Assembly (NCBI GenBank): GCA_938010715.1
Contig: CALLVG010000047.1
Location: 1-56,120 of the forward strand
Length of the DNA stretch: 56,120 bases
From: an uncultured Saprospiraceae bacterium
GTDB lineage: Bacteria > Bacteroidota > Bacteroidia > Chitinophagales > Saprospiraceae
Direction: 5' to 3'
Shown: one piece after another, positions 15,584-42,491 of the stretch
Position numbering within the stretch: position 1 is the stretch's first letter
Layout: each line of letters starts with the position of its first letter
The notes under the pieces: generated by a model
What the model was told of the DNA's origin: nothing
Databases searched by the model: none
What the model saw: only the letters and a program-made list of their open reading frames with translations
Position numbers and translations under genes: made by a program

Positions 15584-16438
15584 CTATTTTTTTTCATTAA
15601 TCCTTTCTCCACAGGTTTTACAAAAAATAGCATCATCATCATGATCTTCTTCCAAACAATATCTGCAAACTTGTGTGTTATGATATTTGTTATCTTTCGT
15701 TTGAGGAGCATTATTGGTATTGGTCATTTCTGCCGAGACGATACCCGTAGGAACAGCTATTACTGCATAACCTAATATCATAACCAAAGCGGATAAAAAT
15801 TTACCAAAAGGAGTAAGGGGCGAAATATCACCATAACCTACCGTGGTCAAGGTTACGATTGCCCAATAAATACTATTCGGAATATTGTTGAAACCATCAT
15901 TGATACCGCCCTCAATAAGGTGCATGATAGAACCCATCAAAATGACCATTACGATTACAAAAAACATGAAAACTGAAATCTTCGCTCTACTAGCTTTCAT
16001 CGCATTAAGAATCTGAGTGCTTTCACCCATGAAATGCCCTAATTTGAAAATTCGGAAAATACGAAGCAATCGAAGGATTCGGATAATCATTAGTTTATTA
16101 ACTCCTCCAGACATGAATAAACCTAAATAAGTAGGAAGTATAGAGAGCACATCCACTATTCCAAAAAAGCTAAAAGCATACTTTCTTCGACTTCTAACAC
16201 AATACATCCTTAGTGCATACTCAATTGAAAAAAGAATTGTCAAAACCCATTCTGCAAAAAATAGTTGGTTATGATACTTTTCGTTAATTGATTCAACTGA
16301 TTCTAACATCACCGCAATGATGCTGAGCACAATCATTACCAATAAAACAATATCGAAAGTCTTTCCTTCAGGAGTGTCCGCCTCGAAAATGATTTCGTGA
16401 ATTCGGTCTTTTCTTCGGTTGATTTGTGCTTCGTTCAT
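15584..16438 (-). CDS. Voltage-gated-type potassium channel with C-terminal zinc ribbon
   Basis: A 284-aa six-helix ion channel. S1-S3 fall within residues 28-110. The voltage-sensor S4 is RILRLLRIFRIFK (about 120-132), with Arg at every third position. The pore has the K+ selectivity filter TVGYGD at 199-204, flanked by S5 (FMFFVIVMVILMGS) and S6 (FLSALVMILGYAVIAVP). The tail carries four cysteines (C258, C261, C273, C276) as CRYC and CKTC, separated by an acidic EEDHDDDA loop, resembling a zinc ribbon. Ligand-gating domains such as RCK or cNMP are absent. It should sit in the inner membrane. Confidence 0.92.
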   Translation of the reverse strand: MNEAQINRRKDRIHEIIFEADTPEGKTFDIVLLVMIVLSIIAVMLESVESINEKYHNQLFFAEWVLTILFSIEYALRMYCVRSRRKYAFSFFGIVDVLSILPTYLGLFMSGGVNKLMIIRILRLLRIFRIFKLGHFMGESTQILNAMKASRAKISVFMFFVIVMVILMGSIMHLIEGGINDGFNNIPNSIYWAIVTLTTVGYGDISPLTPFGKFLSALVMILGYAVIAVPTGIVSAEMTNTNNAPQTKDNKYHNTQVCRYCLEEDHDDDAIFCKTCGERINEKK

Positions 16439-16782: not shown

Positions 16783-16790
16783 TATCTTTG
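16783..16790 (+). promoter_or_regulatory. -7 box upstream of the LytTR regulator
   Basis: TATCTTTG matches the TAnnTTTG consensus exactly and gives a leader of about 110 nt. I did not find a well-spaced -33 TTG. Confidence 0.45.
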
Positions 16791-16903: not shown

Positions 16904-17674
16904 ATGAACATGTTAAAAGCCATTATTTTAGAAGATGAGGTCAAAGGGTTACAAAACCTACGAACTCAATTACGTCAGCATTGCAAAAATGTTGAGATTG
17001 TTGCAGAAGCTCGGAGCATTGCCGAATGCAAAGACCTGTTGCAAGATGAAAAATTGGAGATAGACCTCGCATTTATGGACATCGATCTGCCCGACGGTCT
17101 TGTTTTTAGTCTTTTGGAAGATCTTCCAACCATCAACTTCGAAATCATTTTTGTTACCGGTCACAATCAATATGCCTTGAAAGCCTTTGATTTTGCGAGT
17201 ATAGGCTACATCATGAAGCCGATCGATCCAGAAAAATTGATTCAATCTGTTTCGAGAGTCATGCCAAAGCAAGACAATCAAATGGAGCAGCGAATGGAAG
17301 TTTTCAAAGACAGCTTCAATAATCCAAAAGGATTGGGAGGAAAACTCACGATATCTGCATTAGATGGAATGTATTTTATCAACTTCAGCGAAATCCTTCG
17401 ATTTGAAGCAGAAGATAACTACACACACATTTACAAAACAAATGGCGAAAAAATTACAGTTTCTAAAACCCTAAAGGCATACGAGAAAATGCTTCATGGG
17501 TTAAACTTTTATCGAGTCCACAAAGGACACATGATTAATATGCACCACATCGACCGATTTGTAAAAGGAGACGGCGGTTATATTGTCATGGAAGACGAGA
17601 AAAAAATTGATGTTTCCAGAAGAAGAAGAGGGCCATTTATGGAAGCACTCAAGAATATGCATACCACCATATAG
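16904..17674 (+). CDS. LytTR-family response regulator
   Basis: A 256-aa two-component transcription regulator. The receiver domain (residues 1-125) has the acidic pair in IILEDEVKG, the phospho-acceptor Asp59 in FMDIDLPDG, the Thr switch in IIFVTGHNQYA and Lys in GYIMKPIDPEKL. The LytTR DNA-binding domain (about 150-256) has ILRFEAEDNYTHIYKTNGEK, FYRVHKGHMINMHHIDRF and VSRRRRGPF. The His_kinase-type sensor that normally pairs with this class is encoded 0.7 kb downstream, and a small peptide gene lies between. The peptide gene is a plausible target. Confidence 0.94.
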   Translation: MNMLKAIILEDEVKGLQNLRTQLRQHCKNVEIVAEARSIAECKDLLQDEKLEIDLAFMDIDLPDGLVFSLLEDLPTINFEIIFVTGHNQYALKAFDFASIGYIMKPIDPEKLIQSVSRVMPKQDNQMEQRMEVFKDSFNNPKGLGGKLTISALDGMYFINFSEILRFEAEDNYTHIYKTNGEKITVSKTLKAYEKMLHGLNFYRVHKGHMINMHHIDRFVKGDGGYIVMEDEKKIDVSRRRRGPFMEALKNMHTTI

Positions 17675-17834
17675 GTCGGGTTTAAAAAGATTGTCATTAT
17701 ACGAAATTTTAATTCATATTTAAAATAAATATGTATCTAAATTCTGGGTATTTTTCAATCTTAATTAAAAAAAAACCTACCTTTACAGGGTACTTATAAA
17801 CACTATTGTATTTTACTTTGAAACACGTTTTACT

Positions 17835-18020
17835 ATGTACACAACTTTACAAAACCTACTACCTATGGGAAAGTCAAAAAAGTCTATCGACAAGGTTATT
17901 GAAAAGGACATTCAGATACTCAAAGAAGGCGAGATGTCTCGTTTGCTTGGTGGTAAATTGAATGGAAAATCGGGTAACAAATGGAATAATACTGGTTTAA
18001 ATACCATTATGCCACAGTAA
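17835..18020 (+). CDS. Small peptide with double-glycine-type leader
   Basis: A 61-aa ORF (or 51 aa from the second ATG at 17865, which I consider at least as likely). It has a charged helical leader ending in ILKEGEMSRLLGGK, which resembles the LxxxEMxxLxGG leader of Bacteroidota natural-product precursors and double-glycine bacteriocins cleaved by C39 peptidase transporters. The putative core after GG has 21 residues, is rich in Asn, Gly and Lys, and has no Cys (starts KLNGKSGNKWNN). A strong terminator begins 33 bp after the stop, consistent with a real, separately transcribed gene. It lies between a LytTR regulator and a TPR histidine kinase. No maturase or exporter is present in the window. 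The leader match is visible; the secreted-peptide role is inferred. Confidence 0.65.
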   Translation: MYTTLQNLLPMGKSKKSIDKVIEKDIQILKEGEMSRLLGGKLNGKSGNKWNNTGLNTIMPQ

Positions 18021-18052
18021 TTCATTTTAAATCCTTTGAACAGCCTTACTAC

Positions 18053-18089
18053 AAAAAGGGCTACTCAACTTAGTTGAGTAGCCCTTTTT
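18053..18089 (+). terminator. Strong terminator after the small peptide gene
   Basis: Perfect 17-bp stem AAAAAGGGCTACTCAAC / GTTGAGTAGCCCTTTTT with a 3-nt loop. It isolates the peptide gene from the downstream kinase gene. Confidence 0.92.
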
Positions 18090-18398
18090 CCATTTTATAT
18101 TTTTTTAATAAAGTCTAATTGATTTTGATAAAAACGAAAAGCAATCATTCAAATACAAAACTTACTAACTAAAGTAAATTGACAGTGAACACGGTCTGCT
18201 TTGTGCTTCAATAAAAACAATCTTCGGCGTAACTGAAGTTCCGCATACACAAGGCAAAACAACATTTTTTTCTTCTTTCTTAGCCGGAAAAAGAAGTATT
18301 TGCTTGCATGTGAAATACTTTAAAATAAAGTCTATTGGGCTAAGTTATTTTTGAAACTTCACTTAGAAGTCTTATTTTTATGAAAATTATAAATCTAC
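18090..18398. other. Intergenic region upstream of the TPR kinase
   Basis: A stretch of about 310 bp. It carries two single TTAGACTTTAT-family ends in the same orientation (AATAAAGTCTAATT at about 18107-18120 and AAAATAAAGTCTATT at about 18321-18335). An ATG at 18380 lies in another frame and stops after 30 codons. No promoter could be placed with confidence. Confidence 0.5.
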
Positions 18399-20327
18399 GT
18401 GGAAAACAAATTAAAAGCATTAGAATTGGAAGGGAATGGCCGCAATCGGTCGAGTACGATCGCATTGAGTAAGCTAGATGCCAAAATTCGGAAATTAGCT
18501 TTTACCGATGTAAACCGCACAAAAGAATTGCTTCTCGAAATGAAGCTTTTGCTTTCCAAAGAACCTCATCCCGATTTTCAGTTTAGCTATGATTTACATT
18601 TAGGCTTTGTGGAGAATCAACTCTACAATTTCAAAAAAGCAATCAAACGACTAAATGCTGCTTTGCGGGTGCAAGAGCAGCAAGGTGATATTCAGCAACG
18701 TGTCGAAACACTCATCGACCTCAGTGCAGTATATACCAATATGGGAGAGATGGAACTTACCAATGATATTTTGGAGGAATCCAGAAAACTGCTGAAAGCT
18801 TTCCCCAATAAAATTATGGAAGCGCGGTTTTTGTGTAGAAGAGGATATACCAAATTACACTACAATAATTTGGGAGATGCTATCGAATTCTTTTTAGAAG
18901 CTGAAAAAATACTCAATGAAAGTTTTGATGATTTAGAATATAAGGATTACTACTTTCTTACCTTGATTTATAACGGACTGGGGCAAGTTTATGCAAAGAG
19001 TAACGAACCAGATAAAGCAATTAGAGCACACTTGAATGCGGTGAATCTTTGTGATCAAGTCGGGATGAAAACTCGTATGAGTTGGCATTATCTTTCTGTT
19101 GGAAATGCCTACATGTCAATCAATGATATCTCAAATGCAGAGGAGTTTTTTACGAAAGTAATTTCTATTGAAAACGATAGCAGCATACTTTCTAGGGCAC
19201 TAGCGTATGGAAATATTGGCTTCTTAGCTTTACAGAAAAAGGAGTTGAAACAAGCACTCGAACTTTTTGATAAAGCAGAGTATATATACAAAGAAAGTGA
19301 TGCAACAGATTACGGAAACTTTGCAAAATTAAATTTTTGGAGAGGTCAATTATTTGCTGAACTCGGTAGAGAAAATAAGGCTTTATCCTTTTTTGAAAAG
19401 GCGTATAAGCAGGCCTCAAGGGTCAATGACTTCATCCAATTATTGGCAATTACCAAGGAATTGGTCACCTATTATGCGGAGTTAAATGATTACGAAAACG
19501 CCTACCATCACCAGATGCTTTACGAAAATTTTCACGAAAAGCACTTGGAAGAAGTGCGCACTCGAAAGACTTTGGAATTGGATGTTAGGTATGAAGCAGA
19601 TAAAAAGCAGCAAGAAGCAAATCGCCTTAAATTGCAAGCGACCAAACTTCAACTAAAAGCATTGCGCGCGCAGATGAATCCGCATTTTATGCATAATGCG
19701 TTGAATGCCATTCAAACCTATATTTCGACTGGAGATGTCAAAAATGCTTCTTCCTATCTCGCTCGTTTCTCTGAGTTGATGCGAAAGAGTCTTGATTTTT
19801 CTGACGTTGAGATTATTTCATTGGAAGAAGAAATCGACTTTTTGAGAGAGTATTTGTCTCTAAATCAAAAGTTGAGATTTGAAAACAATCTTAATTTTAA
19901 AATAATGGTGGCTGATGATGTTGAAGAAGATATTTGTGGGATACCGACGATGATCATTCAGCCTTATGTTGAAAATGCAATTGAGCATGGTATTCGTCGT
20001 ATTCAAAATGGAAATATATTGGTTGCGTTTGAAATGTTAGAAGATGACAACCTGTTATGTATTATCCAAGATGACGGAATTGGTAGGGATGAAGTTCGCC
20101 GAATCCAATCTGAAGATCCTAAGTTTAAGAATCATCGTTCAAGAGGGACAAAAATTACAGAAGACCGTTTGAGGATTCTTTTTAATGTTCCAGAAGAAGA
20201 AAGTTTTGTGCAAATTATTGACCTCAAAGATGATAATGGAAAAGGCATTGGTACAAGAGTTGAAATTCAAATGCCAATAACTGAAACAAACATGGTCGCT
20301 AATGAGGATACTAATACCTCAATTTAA
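18399..20327 (+). CDS. Cytosolic TPR histidine kinase (His_kinase/LytS type)
   Basis: A 642-aa sensor kinase. Residues about 50-390 form an array of TPR-like repeats (for example LIYNGLGQVYAKSNEPDKAI, AYGNIGFLALQKKELKQALE, NFWRGQLFAELGRENKALSF). A coiled coil (about 390-420) leads to the His_kinase domain with the phospho-acceptor His429 in QMNPHFMHNALNAI. The ATPase domain shows the N box PYVENAIEHGI and the G1 box IIQDDGIGRDE. Related Bacteroidota kinases usually have a signal peptide and a membrane helix between TPR and kinase; neither is visible here, so the protein appears cytoplasmic. It starts at GTG; the only nearby ATG is out of frame. It probably phosphorylates the LytTR regulator at 16904. 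Confidence 0.9.
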   Translation: MENKLKALELEGNGRNRSSTIALSKLDAKIRKLAFTDVNRTKELLLEMKLLLSKEPHPDFQFSYDLHLGFVENQLYNFKKAIKRLNAALRVQEQQGDIQQRVETLIDLSAVYTNMGEMELTNDILEESRKLLKAFPNKIMEARFLCRRGYTKLHYNNLGDAIEFFLEAEKILNESFDDLEYKDYYFLTLIYNGLGQVYAKSNEPDKAIRAHLNAVNLCDQVGMKTRMSWHYLSVGNAYMSINDISNAEEFFTKVISIENDSSILSRALAYGNIGFLALQKKELKQALELFDKAEYIYKESDATDYGNFAKLNFWRGQLFAELGRENKALSFFEKAYKQASRVNDFIQLLAITKELVTYYAELNDYENAYHHQMLYENFHEKHLEEVRTRKTLELDVRYEADKKQQEANRLKLQATKLQLKALRAQMNPHFMHNALNAIQTYISTGDVKNASSYLARFSELMRKSLDFSDVEIISLEEEIDFLREYLSLNQKLRFENNLNFKIMVADDVEEDICGIPTMIIQPYVENAIEHGIRRIQNGNILVAFEMLEDDNLLCIIQDDGIGRDEVRRIQSEDPKFKNHRSRGTKITEDRLRILFNVPEEESFVQIIDLKDDNGKGIGTRVEIQMPITETNMVANEDTNTSI

Positions 20328-37156: not shown

Positions 37157-39562
37157 CTAAAGTTTAATCATTCGTTTTGAAATGGTTTGATTTCCATTTT
37201 TCAAAACTAAATAATAAGAACCTTTTGGCAAATGATTGACTCTAATGGCAAAGTCTTGCTTTTCAGATGTTTTTGAAAAGGCTTTTCTTTCTAATAACTG
37301 ACCATTGATGTTGATGATGTCTAATTCAAATTCACCTTTCCAATCGTTATCTACGGTTAAGGTAGTTTGGAAAACCACTGGATTTGGAGTCAATTTTAAA
37401 TTTTTATCATCTTCAATAATGTCTTTTGTTGATACATTTCCTTGGAACTCATAAGCACCAATATCTGTCTGACCAGTACGACCATTTCCATCCAAATCGG
37501 TTGGAGGTGCACCTGCTGAGACACCTGCTTCAATAAATGGACTTCCTTCCAATATATGATAATCGAAGCTTGCTGCATCTGCATACGACGGAGATTCTTT
37601 TGAATCACTTAAATCAAGCGTCGCATCAAAAATACCATCTGTTGTATTGTTATTGGAGAAATTTCCGCCCAAAGAAACAACCAACGTGTTGCCAGCTTCA
37701 ACTCCGTAATTATTCGAAAAGCCATTCGTAAACGCATTATTTTGAAGGAAGAGGGTTGCGGCTGTGGAGTCTTCTGTCCAGGTTGCGATGCCAGCTGCCA
37801 ACTCTCCAAAATTGTCAGCGAGCGTATTGTTCGTCATTTTTACTGTCAATTCATTCGGGCCAGAAGCATTCATCGAAATTGCACCTCCAGTACCAATCTC
37901 ATTCGCGATATTATTGACAAAAAGACAATTTGCAATATTTGAATTCGCATTTCCAATATTCAGACCGCCACCTTGCGTTGCAGCCAAGTTAAAATTGAAA
38001 ATGGTATTGGTTAGATTTAGAGTTGATAAATCCAAAGAATCTTCTCCCATAGAAAAGCCACCGGCAATGCCAGAGGATTGATTCCCTTCAAAACTACAAT
38101 TTTCTACAGTTACATTTTGGCCACCGCCACAAAAAGCTCCTGCACCGTTTACTTCAGCGGTGTTACTAAAAAAAGTTGTGTTTTTATAAGTAAGCGAAGT
38201 GTAATCACTTTGAGCATAAGTTCCCCCTCCGAAACGTGCTGTATTCGTATCAAAAATACAATCTTCATAAGTCACATTTGCCCCGAAACCTGCCGTTGCA
38301 CCACCACCACTTGTCAATGCTTCATTGCCTTTAAAAGTTGTTCCTTTTACAACTGCAAAAGTAGAATCTCCGTAAATGGTAAGACCTCCTCCCCAGCCAC
38401 CGCCAGCATTGTTTCCTTCAAAAGTACAATCGGTAATAGTGAGTCGCTTTGCATCACCATTTGCATTTACGGCACCTCCTGTGCTTGCTGCAGTATTATT
38501 GGTAAAATTGCAATTTAGTAAATGTAAACTTCCTGTAAAGGTTCTAACTGCTCCACCTCCCCAGCTACTCGCAAAATTTCCGTTGAAATTACAATCTTTG
38601 ATGAGCATGTTATCTGCTTCTTGTTCTGCAAGCGGAAAATCTCTGTAGTCTCCATAAATCCCCCCGCCATTGGTCGCACTGTTGTTTGAAAAGGTACAAC
38701 CTTGAATAGTCAAGTTTCTGGTGTGCCAATTGAACATTCCTCCACCTGAACCTGTGTCGTTGATATTGTCATTGAATTCGCAATTTGTAACTGTAATATT
38801 ATTACATCGGCTTGGATATAGGGCGCCTCTATTCACTGCGTTATCAAAGAATTGGCAATCTTTTACCTCTATATTTTGAGTTCTAAGAATATAAAATGTA
38901 GCTTGATCAAAGGCCGTATTTTTATAAAATCTACAATTTTGAACAATCGAATTGGAAGTTATTCCTTCCAATAGCAATAATCCTACACCTGAACCACCAT
39001 AATTGCCCGTAAAATCACAACGAGAAATAGACACTCTGGCTTCAGAATAGATACCAGCACCTCTTCTCAAGAAAAGCGGGATGTCGATTGAATCATTGAA
39101 CGCAAGATTTGTACCTCCAGTAACGGTCAATGCATCGATGATGACCATTTCTGCCGAGCTATCAATGAGCATAACATGAACTGAGTTGTCTTCTCTATTG
39201 ATAAAGTTATTTCCAAAAACATCATCTCTAGCTAAATCACCACTGATTATAGTTGGATTTGAATCTATCACTCTATCATCTTGACTGGTTTCGGTTCCCG
39301 CAAAGCCACCAAAAATATTGACTGGCCGATTTACATTAAAAGTAGAAAAGGTATCTAATGATCCAGCGCCTGGTGTGTAGATTCCAGCTGCAATCCAAAT
39401 GGTATTATCGGAAGAATCATCTAATGCCGATTGCAAATCAGTGTAGGCATTGTCCCAAGAGGTGCCGTCATTTGCGCCAATAGCGGAATGATTGACATAT
39501 AATTGTGCTTGCAATAAGCCGCACGAAACAAATAAAAACGCGAGGAGTATAGTTTTTTTCAT
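37157..39562 (-). CDS. Secreted right-handed beta-helix protein with T9SS type A domain, paralogue 1
   Basis: An 801-aa secreted protein. The signal peptide is MKKTILLAFLFVSCGLLQAQ. The domain that follows (LYVNHSAIGANDGTSWDNAY, TDLQSALD) is the start seen in choice-of-anchor-Q/pectate-lyase-like proteins. Then come about 20 beta-helix turns with patterns such as CxFxGNxAxxGGG and NxTFxxNxA. A DLDGNGRTGQTDIGAYEFQG motif closes the helix. The type A sorting domain is LKLTPNPVVFQTTLTVDNDW to RMIKL. The frame is open to 39601, but the signal peptide fixes the start at ATG 39562. Role: likely polysaccharide-binding or adhesin; catalysis is not shown. Paralogous to the gene at 39951. Confidence 0.9.
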   Translation of the reverse strand: MKKTILLAFLFVSCGLLQAQLYVNHSAIGANDGTSWDNAYTDLQSALDDSSDNTIWIAAGIYTPGAGSLDTFSTFNVNRPVNIFGGFAGTETSQDDRVIDSNPTIISGDLARDDVFGNNFINREDNSVHVMLIDSSAEMVIIDALTVTGGTNLAFNDSIDIPLFLRRGAGIYSEARVSISRCDFTGNYGGSGVGLLLLEGITSNSIVQNCRFYKNTAFDQATFYILRTQNIEVKDCQFFDNAVNRGALYPSRCNNITVTNCEFNDNINDTGSGGGMFNWHTRNLTIQGCTFSNNSATNGGGIYGDYRDFPLAEQEADNMLIKDCNFNGNFASSWGGGAVRTFTGSLHLLNCNFTNNTAASTGGAVNANGDAKRLTITDCTFEGNNAGGGWGGGLTIYGDSTFAVVKGTTFKGNEALTSGGGATAGFGANVTYEDCIFDTNTARFGGGTYAQSDYTSLTYKNTTFFSNTAEVNGAGAFCGGGQNVTVENCSFEGNQSSGIAGGFSMGEDSLDLSTLNLTNTIFNFNLAATQGGGLNIGNANSNIANCLFVNNIANEIGTGGAISMNASGPNELTVKMTNNTLADNFGELAAGIATWTEDSTAATLFLQNNAFTNGFSNNYGVEAGNTLVVSLGGNFSNNNTTDGIFDATLDLSDSKESPSYADAASFDYHILEGSPFIEAGVSAGAPPTDLDGNGRTGQTDIGAYEFQGNVSTKDIIEDDKNLKLTPNPVVFQTTLTVDNDWKGEFELDIININGQLLERKAFSKTSEKQDFAIRVNHLPKGSYYLVLKNGNQTISKRMIKL

Positions 39563-39586
39563 TACGAAAGTTTTTAAAATTATTTG

Positions 39587-39719
39587 CTGAGTACAGGACA
39601 AAACATAGTTTTACTAAACTTCGCTTTCGCTAAATGCACTGATTTAATTAATTCTATTCACGAATTTTTTAGAAATTAAGTTTAGTAAACCTCTTATTTT
39701 ACTTTTGTCCTGTACTTAA
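39587..39719 (+). mobile_element. 133-bp MITE (GTACAGGAC family), copy 3
   Basis: The ends are CTGAGTACAGGACAAAACAT and TTTTGTCCTGTACTTAA, with the inner pair TTTACTAAACTT / AAGTTTAGTAAA conserved, but the middle differs from copies 1 and 2. A 9-bp direct repeat AATTATTTG flanks it at 39578-39586 and 39720-39728 (the match extends to 13 bp if the element's outer bases are included). It lies 25 bp upstream of the beta-helix gene 1 ATG, so it must be in its leader or promoter. Confidence 0.8.
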
Positions 39720-39950: not shown

Positions 39951-42344
39951 TTAGATTTTGATTAATTTTTTAGAAATGGCGCGTTGATTATTCTTTAGAA
40001 TCAAAACGTAACTGCCTGATTTTAAGTGATTTGTATAAAGTACGAAGTCTTCCTTTTGATGCGTTTTTATCAATTTTTCTATTAAAATTAATTTTCCATT
40101 CAAATCAAATACTTCCATTCTTATCTCACCTGTCCAGTCATTTTCAATAGCAATTGTTGTCATGTAATTTGCTGGATTTGGTGTGAGTAATACAGCGCCA
40201 TTGTCTTGCTGTAGGTTTGCTGTTCCGACTGTTTGTGTAAATTCAAATGCACCAATATCAACTTGATTCGTTCTTGAATTTCCTTCCAAATCTGTAAGCG
40301 GAGCACCAGTTTCGATGCCCGTATCAATCAATGGGCTTCCTTCCATCAAATGATAATCATTGGCAGATGGATTCGAGAACATTGGATTTCTATCATCATT
40401 ATTAAAATCAGAAGCATTGTTGAAGTAGTTCACAGTTGATTGGTCAGACGAGAAATTTCCACCCAAAGATTGGACAACTGCGTTACCAGCCGCGATACCA
40501 TAATTTGGCCCCAAATTGTTGACAAACGCATTGTTGAGCAATTGTAATTGTGCTGCGGTATTGTTTGCAGTCCAGGTAGAAATTCCTGCTGCAAGACTAC
40601 CTTCATTATCTGCAAATGTTGAATTAGTAATATTTAGAAACAAGTCAAAATTACCCGTCGCGTTAGTCGAAATTGCTCCACCAATACCTGCATCTATTGC
40701 TTTGTTTTTAGTAAATAAACTACTGACAATGTTCGTGTTAGCGGATGAAATATTCAAAGCGCCGCCTTCTTCGTTTGCAGTGTTATTATTGAAAATTGTA
40801 TTGGTAATATTCATTTGGGCTAAATCTGCACCTTCTTCTACGATATTGATTGCGCCACCAGTTTTAGCAGTATTTCTTTCAAATTTTGAATTTTCGATGG
40901 TAAGATTTCCTTCTCCAGTTAGGCTAATCGCACCGCCAAAGTTTTCACTTGAGTTGGAGAGATAGGTGGTGTTTTTGATGGTTGCTATTGTCTTCTTATC
41001 TTGAACAAACATTGCGCCTCCCCAACGCGCAGTGTTACTTGCAAAAAGACAATCTTCAAAAGTCCCATCTGCTCCCATGCCGAGTAGAACTCCACCTCCA
41101 GCAGTCGAAGCGTTGTTTTTTAGAATGGTAGAGTTTTTAATAATTACAAAAGTAGATTCATCAAAAAATGACATTCCAGCTCCATTTCCAGCTTCATTTC
41201 CTTCGATAGTGCAATTACTTATTAAGGCATGTTTTTCTGAACCGCCAGCATAAATAGCACCACCAGTTTCAGCTGCTTTGTTTCTATTAAAGCTACAGGC
41301 TAATGCTTCAAAAGAACTTTTCCAAGCATAAATTGCAGCTCCTTTTTGCCCAGCAATATTATCTGAGAAGTTACAATTCTGAATCAAAATATTGTCCACA
41401 TCTTGGTTAGAAAATGGAGTAGATTGATTGTTGATGAAAATGGCAGAACCATTGGTAGAAACATTATTTGTAAAAGAACAATCAACAATATCAAGCTGTT
41501 TGGACTGCCATGAAAAAATGCCTGCACCATTCCCTGCATTGCTTTGATTGTATGAAAAATTACAATTGGTCAAAACAATATTTGAACTTTCAAAAGCATG
41601 GACGCTTCCACGGTTGGTGATGTTGTCACTAAAATCACATGAATTTACTTGAATATCTCTCGTATCTTCTAAATGAAGAGGCCCTCTATCGAAACTTTTG
41701 TTTTTGTAAAATTTACTATTCTGAATAATAGAACCTTTGGTTTGGTCAGTTCCTAAATGAACTGCGCAACCATTTCCACCAATATTTCCGTAGAAATTAC
41801 ATTTGTTGATAGAGATCTTACTACTAGAATGAATCGCGGCTCCTGAATATAAAAAAGGGTCGAGGTTTGTATTAATTTCACTGTTGGAACCACCTGCAAA
41901 AGCAAGTCCGTCAAATGTAACATTACCCGCTGATGACTCAATTACCACAATATGCAAAACATTATCTGCTCGATTGAGATCGTTGTTTCCGAAGACGTCA
42001 TTTTGAGCCAAATCACCACTTAAAATTGTCTGATTTGCATCAATGACACGGTCGTCGGGCGTGGATTCCGTACCAATAAAACTACCGATAATATTGACTG
42101 GTCGATTGATTCTAAAAGTTGCGTTGGCATCCATGCTACCATTGTTGGGTAGATATGTACCTTTGGCAACCCAAATATCAGTTGTCGAGTTGTCATCAAT
42201 GGCTTGTTGCAAGTTGGTGTAGGCATCTTCCCAAGTAGTACCGTTATTAGCGCCTGTAGCGGCATTGTTAACAAAAATTCGGGGTTGTGCTTGCAATGTT
42301 ATTGCAAAAAAAAGAGCAATTAAGGGAATCAAAGTTTTTTTCAT
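39951..42344 (-). CDS. Secreted right-handed beta-helix protein with T9SS type A domain, paralogue 2
   Basis: A 797-aa paralogue of the 37157 gene, in the same order: signal peptide MKKTLIPLIALFFAITLQAQ, then FVNNAATGANNGTTWEDAYT, then DDRVIDANQTILSGDLAQND, beta-helix turns, TDLEGNSRTNQVDIGAFEF, and the type A domain VLLTPNPANYMTTIAIENDW to KKLIKI. The two proteins align throughout, so one arose by tandem duplication. The middle helix turns differ more than the ends. The start was moved from 42395 to ATG 42344 by the signal peptide. A MITE lies 148 bp upstream. Confidence 0.9.
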   Translation of the reverse strand: MKKTLIPLIALFFAITLQAQPRIFVNNAATGANNGTTWEDAYTNLQQAIDDNSTTDIWVAKGTYLPNNGSMDANATFRINRPVNIIGSFIGTESTPDDRVIDANQTILSGDLAQNDVFGNNDLNRADNVLHIVVIESSAGNVTFDGLAFAGGSNSEINTNLDPFLYSGAAIHSSSKISINKCNFYGNIGGNGCAVHLGTDQTKGSIIQNSKFYKNKSFDRGPLHLEDTRDIQVNSCDFSDNITNRGSVHAFESSNIVLTNCNFSYNQSNAGNGAGIFSWQSKQLDIVDCSFTNNVSTNGSAIFINNQSTPFSNQDVDNILIQNCNFSDNIAGQKGAAIYAWKSSFEALACSFNRNKAAETGGAIYAGGSEKHALISNCTIEGNEAGNGAGMSFFDESTFVIIKNSTILKNNASTAGGGVLLGMGADGTFEDCLFASNTARWGGAMFVQDKKTIATIKNTTYLSNSSENFGGAISLTGEGNLTIENSKFERNTAKTGGAINIVEEGADLAQMNITNTIFNNNTANEEGGALNISSANTNIVSSLFTKNKAIDAGIGGAISTNATGNFDLFLNITNSTFADNEGSLAAGISTWTANNTAAQLQLLNNAFVNNLGPNYGIAAGNAVVQSLGGNFSSDQSTVNYFNNASDFNNDDRNPMFSNPSANDYHLMEGSPLIDTGIETGAPLTDLEGNSRTNQVDIGAFEFTQTVGTANLQQDNGAVLLTPNPANYMTTIAIENDWTGEIRMEVFDLNGKLILIEKLIKTHQKEDFVLYTNHLKSGSYVLILKNNQRAISKKLIKI

Positions 42345-42491
42345 AAAGACCATAATTTGTAAAGTGAGGAATGTAAGTTTTCGGTATTTTCGCAAAAATA
42401 GGCCTTAAAATATATGAATGGATTTTAAATGGGGATTAATTTTATATATAAATTATTATAATGTATTTTAACGCAGATTATTAGGCTTTAT

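Follow-up and report, generated by a model that had tools for sequence, protein, structure and literature searches.

The closest described systems to the one considered here are the ComC/ComD/ComE and BlpC/BlpH/BlpR circuits of streptococci, which combine a double-glycine precursor, a C39 exporter, a LytTR output regulator and a kinase encoded with the peptide, and the RRNPP systems (Rap-Phr, NprR-NprX, PlcR-PapR), in which a cytosolic tetratricopeptide repeat (TPR) protein is encoded beside a small peptide gene. Descriptions of peptide quorum sensing come almost exclusively from Gram-positive bacteria, and we know of no autoinducer of such a kind established for Bacteroidota. The locus in question lies in a 56,120-nt stretch of DNA (the window; positions 1-56,120 of contig CALLVG010000047.1, assembly GCA_938010715.1) from an uncultured bacterium of the Saprospiraceae, a family with a prominent place in activated sludge and on marine particles. 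It comprises genes for a LytTR response regulator, a small double-glycine peptide and a TPR sensor kinase, and is read here, with a probability of roughly 60%, as a family-specific peptide pheromone circuit that has LytTR output, like ComC/ComE, and the cytosolic TPR kinase as its receptor. A broader claim is put forward more tentatively, at somewhat less than even odds, namely that this is an undescribed pheromone family of a Gram-negative phylum where double-glycine export and intracellular TPR-kinase sensing, the one of ComC type and the other of RRNPP type, are joined in one phosphorelay.

Comparison with described systems

What does this locus share with those systems, and where does it part from them? 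With ComCDE and Blp it has in common the four features named above, including a LytTR regulator gene next to the putative pheromone gene. It differs in the receptor, which in those circuits is a polytopic membrane kinase (HPK10), the putative receptor of this locus being a LytS-type TPR kinase that is soluble, and also in its Gram-negative host, in a peptide gene with its own promoter and terminator, and in an exporter that is unlinked. A preliminary description of this DNA had likened the layout to circuits of the Firmicutes, a comparison that holds for the set of regulator, peptide and sensor and fails for membrane sensing as in ComD-type circuits. With RRNPP systems the likeness lies in a cytosolic TPR protein, here a putative receptor, beside a small peptide gene, in a conserved peptide end that is the C-terminus, and in the similar size and fold of the TPR domain. 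RRNPP precursors, in contrast, leave the cell through Sec or along other routes that do not involve C39, and their receptors are helix-turn-helix transcription factors or Rap phosphatases, whereas the protein here is a histidine kinase. Because a defining feature of each fails, the locus is filed under neither ComCDE nor RRNPP.

Two further comparisons concern single components. The TIGR04149-type double-glycine precursors of Bacteroidota have the same type of leader, with weak leader matches in some homologues, but the peptides considered here have a conserved short C-terminus and a tie to a two-component pair. The FimS/LytS-type TPR kinases of Bacteroidota likewise unite TPRs with His_kinase (PF06580), but the present kinase has no transmembrane helix between the two parts; of three further LytS-type kinases from the genus that were checked, at least two have a clear one.

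A large survey of RRNPP systems covered Firmicutes genomes (PMC10075063), and the consulted passages of a survey of ribosomally synthesised and post-translationally modified peptides (RiPPs) of Bacteroidales describe double-glycine precursors and C39 exporters, with a kinase-regulator pair in one cluster, and do not report the trio (PMC10352776). Searches of open-access literature on Bacteroidota peptide quorum sensing, Gram-negative RRNPP systems and TPR/LytTR kinases turned up no description of the locus. Its parts are variants of known designs, these being ComC-type export, LytTR output and an RRNPP-type TPR receptor; the combination, in this phylum and family, was not found in searchable open-access papers. 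If the reading is true, it links two receptor designs regarded as distinct, the membrane kinases of double-glycine pheromones and the cytosolic TPR receptors of re-imported peptides, and a conserved, mostly single-copy set gives a defined signal to test, with carriers among cultured Saprospiraceae.

Conservation and co-inheritance of the trio

A search with the single peptide sequence across 298 genomes of the family returned homologues, mostly one per genome, and a profile (A1) built from an alignment of 21 of them had matches in 127 of 296 genomes of the family, spread over 56 of 112 genera. Here and below, G, g and L label genomes, genera and loci. Flanking DNA was sufficient to judge gene order for 103 of the 110 non-redundant homologues, and the order was regulator-peptide-kinase in 71, regulator-peptide in 16 and peptide-kinase in 6, with the peptide gene alone in 10. 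Both the open reading frame and its Gly-Gly motif are conserved family-wide between these two genes. Across 395 genomes of the class the profile found next to nothing outside the family among its 17 matches, two of which were within it and one short at 2e-4, the others lying near threshold and many inside long frames. The named carriers identify the family as Saprospiraceae, the cultured ones being Phaeodactylibacter luteus and Flavilitoribacter nigricans.

Of 294 genomes of the family, 136 have a strict regulator orthologue (E<=1e-60); kinase orthologues are present in 141 and the peptide (E<=1e-3) in 122, and 114 genomes hold all three. The Fisher odds ratios (188 for peptide-regulator, 114 for peptide-kinase and 388 for regulator-kinase) are inflated by kinship, the genomes being related and the co-occurrence counts not independent. 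Genus g41 retains all three genes although each is on a different contig. Ten homologues away from both genes would suit an unrelated small gene that shared ancestry has kept between two regulator genes, yet the co-inheritance survives unlinking and the peptide promoter has a phased motif of its own that the regulator and kinase genes almost entirely lack, which leaves such a neutral neighbourhood scarcely credible.

If the genes belong together, regulator-bearing genomes in which no peptide reaches the profile threshold would be expected to contain a diverged one. Fifteen of 19 such genomes were inspected, and 10 had a diverged peptide beside the regulator, eight with Gly-Gly and two (genus g80) without it; in four the flanks were short or no candidate was present. 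In G015 (L170) regulator and kinase are directly adjacent with no peptide between them, and no C39 protein was found in the genome. The recurrence of the trio across nearly half of the Saprospiraceae genomes examined suggests a peptide signal used for gene control.

Several departures from the usual arrangement were also seen. Unlinked peptide copies in g41 (L118, L124, L130) stand beside a MerR-like regulator gene, judged by a look at the sequence only, and the regulator and kinase of the circuit are on other contigs than these copies. Six genomes (G031, G135, G206 and G252 of g27; G033 and G136 of g29) have a kinase orthologue, with no regulator orthologue or peptide found, and those of g27 also have no C39 protein. 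In two genomes the second peptide copy shares its last residues with the main-locus copy, with CGGIMPS in both for L144 (G071), and CGGIIPH and CGGIIPQ for L143 (G038), which suggests that similar signals may come from more than one gene.

The precursor peptide

Because relatives align from the second ATG, with M-G-K, the likely start of the peptide is at 17865, and the 51-61 residues first proposed narrow to 51; the N-terminal extension is not conserved outside the genus. The leader is that of a double-glycine precursor. Among 103 homologues position -12 is hydrophobic in all, -8 is Asp or Glu in 84, -7 is Met or Leu in 89 and -4 is mostly Ile, Val or Leu, and the window peptide has L-4, M-7, E-8, L-12 and I-15. 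Gly-Gly and the leader spacing are retained in all 103 distinct peptides found by the profile. As a DNA pattern, the Gly-Gly motif occurs at only three places across the window's own genome, all unrelated.

The core usually has 16-20 residues, a basic stretch first and then W-N-x-G-C-G-G-I-V/L-P-Q, and in the same homologues Pro stands at -2 in 98 of 103, Gln is last in 88 and Cys is at -7 in 71. The predicted core of Flavilitoribacter nigricans, for instance, is KNDKNKKKFNNGCGGIVPQ. In the window genus the core has no Cys and ends TGLNTIMPQ, so that the Cys-free core of the preliminary description holds for this genus and for the smaller part of the others, and not for the family. Between close relatives nearly all changes in the peptide gene are synonymous (13 synonymous to 0 nonsynonymous for L021-L023, 14 to 0 for L029-L031), a degree of coding constraint that indicates strong purifying selection. 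On the strength of these synonymous-only changes and the family-wide conservation, a chance open reading frame is excluded. The two g80 peptides (L173 in G084, L179 in G173), which lie between regulator and kinase, keep the C-terminus KWNSRCGDLLPH and have lost Gly-Gly, and the C-terminus would thus be under deeper constraint than the cleavage site.

Could the peptide be a natural product and not a signal? The NCBIfam leader models for TIGR04149, TIGR01847 and bactofencin A give weak matches to some homologues and none to the window copy; TIGR04149 matches 7 of 21 homologues, at best with E=2e-4, and leaves the window peptide unmatched even at E<=10. Twelve loci of about 13-20 kb have no conserved neighbour besides a cation channel gene, and no radical SAM or other modification enzyme and no immunity gene among the conserved neighbours. 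The resemblance to natural-product precursors that was first proposed is accordingly confined to the leader of some homologues, and with no modification enzyme among the conserved neighbours the reading as a RiPP was set aside. A core acting as a short cationic bacteriocin, under a kinase-regulator pair that senses something else, would account for a basic core behind a bacteriocin-type leader and for the leader's weak similarity to the bactofencin A and TIGR01847 models. Bacteriocins usually diversify fast, however, and here the core C-terminus is conserved across the family, the peptide is mostly present in one copy per genome, and kinase and regulator are co-inherited with it even when unlinked. 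With the core so conserved and no immunity gene nearby, a regulated antimicrobial is improbable.

The C39 exporter

An exporter encoded away from the locus, as had been anticipated, is present. The window's own genome has two C39 matches, one of them full length with an HlyD partner on contig C247 and unlinked to the trio, and across the family C39 tracks the peptide, C39 proteins being found in 131 of 135 peptide-bearing genomes against 46 of 159 others. A 730-aa C39-ABC gene adjoins a gene for a 430-aa HlyD partner, away from the trio, in 12 of 18 loci inspected, and several of the remaining loci end at contig ends. The HlyD partner (E<=1e-90) is enriched in, and not exclusive to, peptide genomes (30 of 35, against 8 of 45 in which no peptide was found). 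No exporter lay alongside the solitary peptide copies inspected. The second C39 gene of the window's genome (contig C294, L192, 8692-10881) is split in two frames near the contig end, perhaps through decay or a sequencing error.

The leader, together with this co-occurrence, is consistent with C39 cleavage after Gly-Gly and export of the core. The peptide might instead never leave the cell and serve as an inhibitor or adaptor of the kinase, its leader being a helical binding domain that happens to resemble a double-glycine leader. A cytosolic kinase and the absence of Gly-Gly in g80 would accord with such a subunit, but the universal Gly-Gly and leader spacing of the profile-found peptides and the co-occurring exporter do not, nor does the fact that the sole regulator-and-kinase genome seen without an intervening peptide (G015) also has no C39; this explanation is very unlikely.

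A cytosolic TPR kinase

The TPR helices of the kinase span residues 14-361 (18438-19481) and are followed by a continuous helix (365-444) that runs into the His_kinase domain, with H429, and then by the HATPase domain. An AlphaFold2 model (pLDDT 82) has about nine TPR-like helix pairs and a single continuous helix into the dimerisation domain. No hydrophobic or transmembrane segment precedes the H-box in any kinase orthologue examined, and the likely starts have no signal peptide by inspection. The values of about 1.6 to 2.2 in a hydrophobicity scan lie mostly at the extreme N-terminus of stop-to-stop frames, near or upstream of the likely starts, and one (1.6) falls inside the ATPase domain. 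The model for FimS matches residues 187-418 at E=1e-10, far below its cut-off. The preliminary assignment to LytS-type TPR kinases is thus right as to the TPRs and PF06580, and the protein is not a membrane LytS.

Compared with the PDB, the TPR domain is closest to LGN (Z 27) and then to RapF, a phage Rap, RapI and NprR (Z 24-26 over 343-358 residues), a similarity of shared fold and not proof of function. The identity to Rap and NprR is 12-14%, and no RRNPP chain is among the sequence-profile matches. Eight residues that are near-invariant in 59 diverse kinases (N73, N114, R147, D183, R226, W229, N272 and N307) are assigned, from the helix list of the model, to positions on or at the A helices, which line the concave face.

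Because the kinase is cytosolic, sensing would be intracellular, and this raises the question of what form of the peptide is sensed. The main rival to a returning pheromone is a kinase that reads the precursor before export. In this arrangement the TPR domain would bind the precursor and the circuit would gauge peptide synthesis or export capacity and not cell density, while the peptide, once exported, might act on no receptor or have some other role. The trio then needs no import step, the location of the kinase is as expected, and the two genomes that keep the peptide C-terminus without a Gly-Gly site are readily accommodated. A double-glycine leader and the C39 association are nonetheless hard to explain if export is unimportant, and within the core it is the short C-terminus that is most conserved, a pattern shared with peptide signals that are re-imported. 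Such an internal gauge is judged unlikely, though less so than any other alternative.

Promoter, operator-like motif and terminator

The 89 non-redundant intergenic regions upstream of peptide genes were searched for motifs. A Bacteroidota-type promoter motif (TTt.TA..TTTa) is near-universal there, with a log-likelihood of 270 against 70-94 in shuffles. A second, operator-like motif, roughly TTATGTGTAATAAAAATATGTAT, occurs in about 60% of the regions (log-likelihood 223 against 82-108). For 42 scored sites its distance to the -7 box is 64-65 bp in 18, 75-77 bp in six and 54 bp in one, steps of one helical turn, as would be expected for an activator site. The pair of operator and promoter is present in 29 of the 89 peptide regions, 2 of 114 regulator regions, 0 of 102 kinase regions and no shuffles. 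Direct repeats of the AgrA-like LytTR type did not clearly stand out (7 against 2 at a lag of 21, 2 against 2 at a lag of 22), and the search for LytTR sites upstream of the peptide gene yielded the phased, AT-rich motif rather than such repeats. It is this motif, at 17714-17736, that the regulator may bind. The promoters of C39 exporter and kinase genes are not marked by it, nor are those of regulator genes save for 2 of 114, and it has no second copy within 3 mismatches in the window's own genome, so that no regulon emerged.

Just after the stop codon, 80 of 108 homologues have a terminator-like hairpin, against 1 in shuffles. With its own promoter and terminator, the precursor would be made as a short separate transcript. 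The terminator stems (e.g. 18053-18089) have in common a core resembling GGGCTACAT/ATGTAGCCC, in which paired changes (GGACTAC/GTAGTCC) occur between genera, and are more alike than a plain terminator requires.

The proposed circuit

In the pheromone circuit proposed here, the regulated promoter would yield the short precursor transcript, and a C39-ABC/HlyD exporter encoded elsewhere would cut the precursor after Gly-Gly and release the core, a basic peptide some 16-20 residues long with the end W-N-x-G-C-G-G-I-V-P-Q (21 residues, with the Cys lost, in the window copy). The peptide, or its C-terminal part, would re-enter the cell and, as ligand of the kinase, bind the TPR domain in the cytosol on its concave face, so altering the autophosphorylation of the LytS-type kinase. 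The kinase would then phosphorylate the LytTR regulator, which would bind the phased operator 5' of the peptide gene and close a feedback loop, besides acting at further targets.

The earlier proposal of a circuit of regulator, leader peptide and sensor is strengthened by the family-wide conservation of the peptide between both genes, by its coding constraint and by the C39 exporter. Several points weigh against the pheromone circuit, in addition to the kinship behind the co-occurrence counts. Transcription, export, import, binding and phosphotransfer are inferred steps, and the returning peptide would have to cross the Gram-negative outer membrane. The eukaryotic LGN fits the TPR domain slightly better than Rap does, TPR superhelices being common. 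The motif taken as operator is rich in A and T, and no more than a third of the regions have a strong pair of operator and promoter. Finally, two g80 genomes have no Gly-Gly motif, though the C-terminus and a C39 protein are retained.

Feature coordinates and neighbouring genes

The three genes, with their coordinates and shared forward orientation, and the perfect 17-bp terminator at 18053-18089 agree with the preliminary description.

Table 1. Features of the regulator-peptide-kinase locus and its surroundings, in window coordinates.
Feature	Position	Strand	Basis
Voltage-gated-type cation channel gene, divergent, upstream of regulator	15584..16438	-	Pfam Ion_trans E=5e-34; synteny
Bacteroidota-type -7 element TATCTTTG, fits TAnnTTTG, 5' of regulator gene	16783..16790	+	Consensus match alone
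LytTR response regulator, 256 aa	16904..17674	+	Pfam Response_reg E=7e-13, LytTR E=1e-19
Regulator receiver, phospho-acceptor-type Asp59 (AFMDIDLPDG)	inside 16904..17674	+	Position read from sequence
Operator-like motif TCATATTTAAAATAAATATGTAT, 64 bp 5' of -7 box	17714..17736	+	Motif search
-7 promoter element TACCTTTA of peptide gene	17778..17785	+	Motif TTt.TA..TTTa upstream of homologues
Peptide open reading frame, first ATG, 61 aa	17835..18020	+	Open reading frame
Possible N-terminal extension MYTTLQNLLP, if first ATG used	17835..17864	+	In-frame ATGs also in two congeners
Peptide open reading frame, second ATG (likely start), 51 aa, MGKSKKSIDKVIEKDIQILKEGEMSRLLGG then KLNGKSGNKWNNTGLNTIMPQ	17865..18020	+	Cross-family alignment
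Double-glycine leader MGKSKKSIDKVIEKDIQILKEGEMSRLLGG, 30 residues	17865..17954	+	Alignment A1; statistics over 103 homologues
Core peptide KLNGKSGNKWNNTGLNTIMPQ, 21 residues, and stop codon	17955..18020	+	C-terminal Pro-Gln in 86/103 homologues
Intrinsic terminator of peptide gene, perfect 17-bp stem, 3-nt loop	18053..18089	+	-25.7 kcal/mol, z=-7.9
Cytosolic TPR sensor kinase, 642 aa, GTG start	18399..20327	+	TPRs and His_kinase PF06580 E=6e-21 (Pfam)

The cation channel gene is retained beside the locus in 8 of the 12 long loci and may share an intergenic control region with the regulator gene. Elsewhere in the window, on the reverse strand, 37157-39601 and 39951-42395 encode adjacent, similar proteins of 814 aa, with a repeated-motif architecture and a C-terminal sorting-like domain, an apparent tandem duplication.

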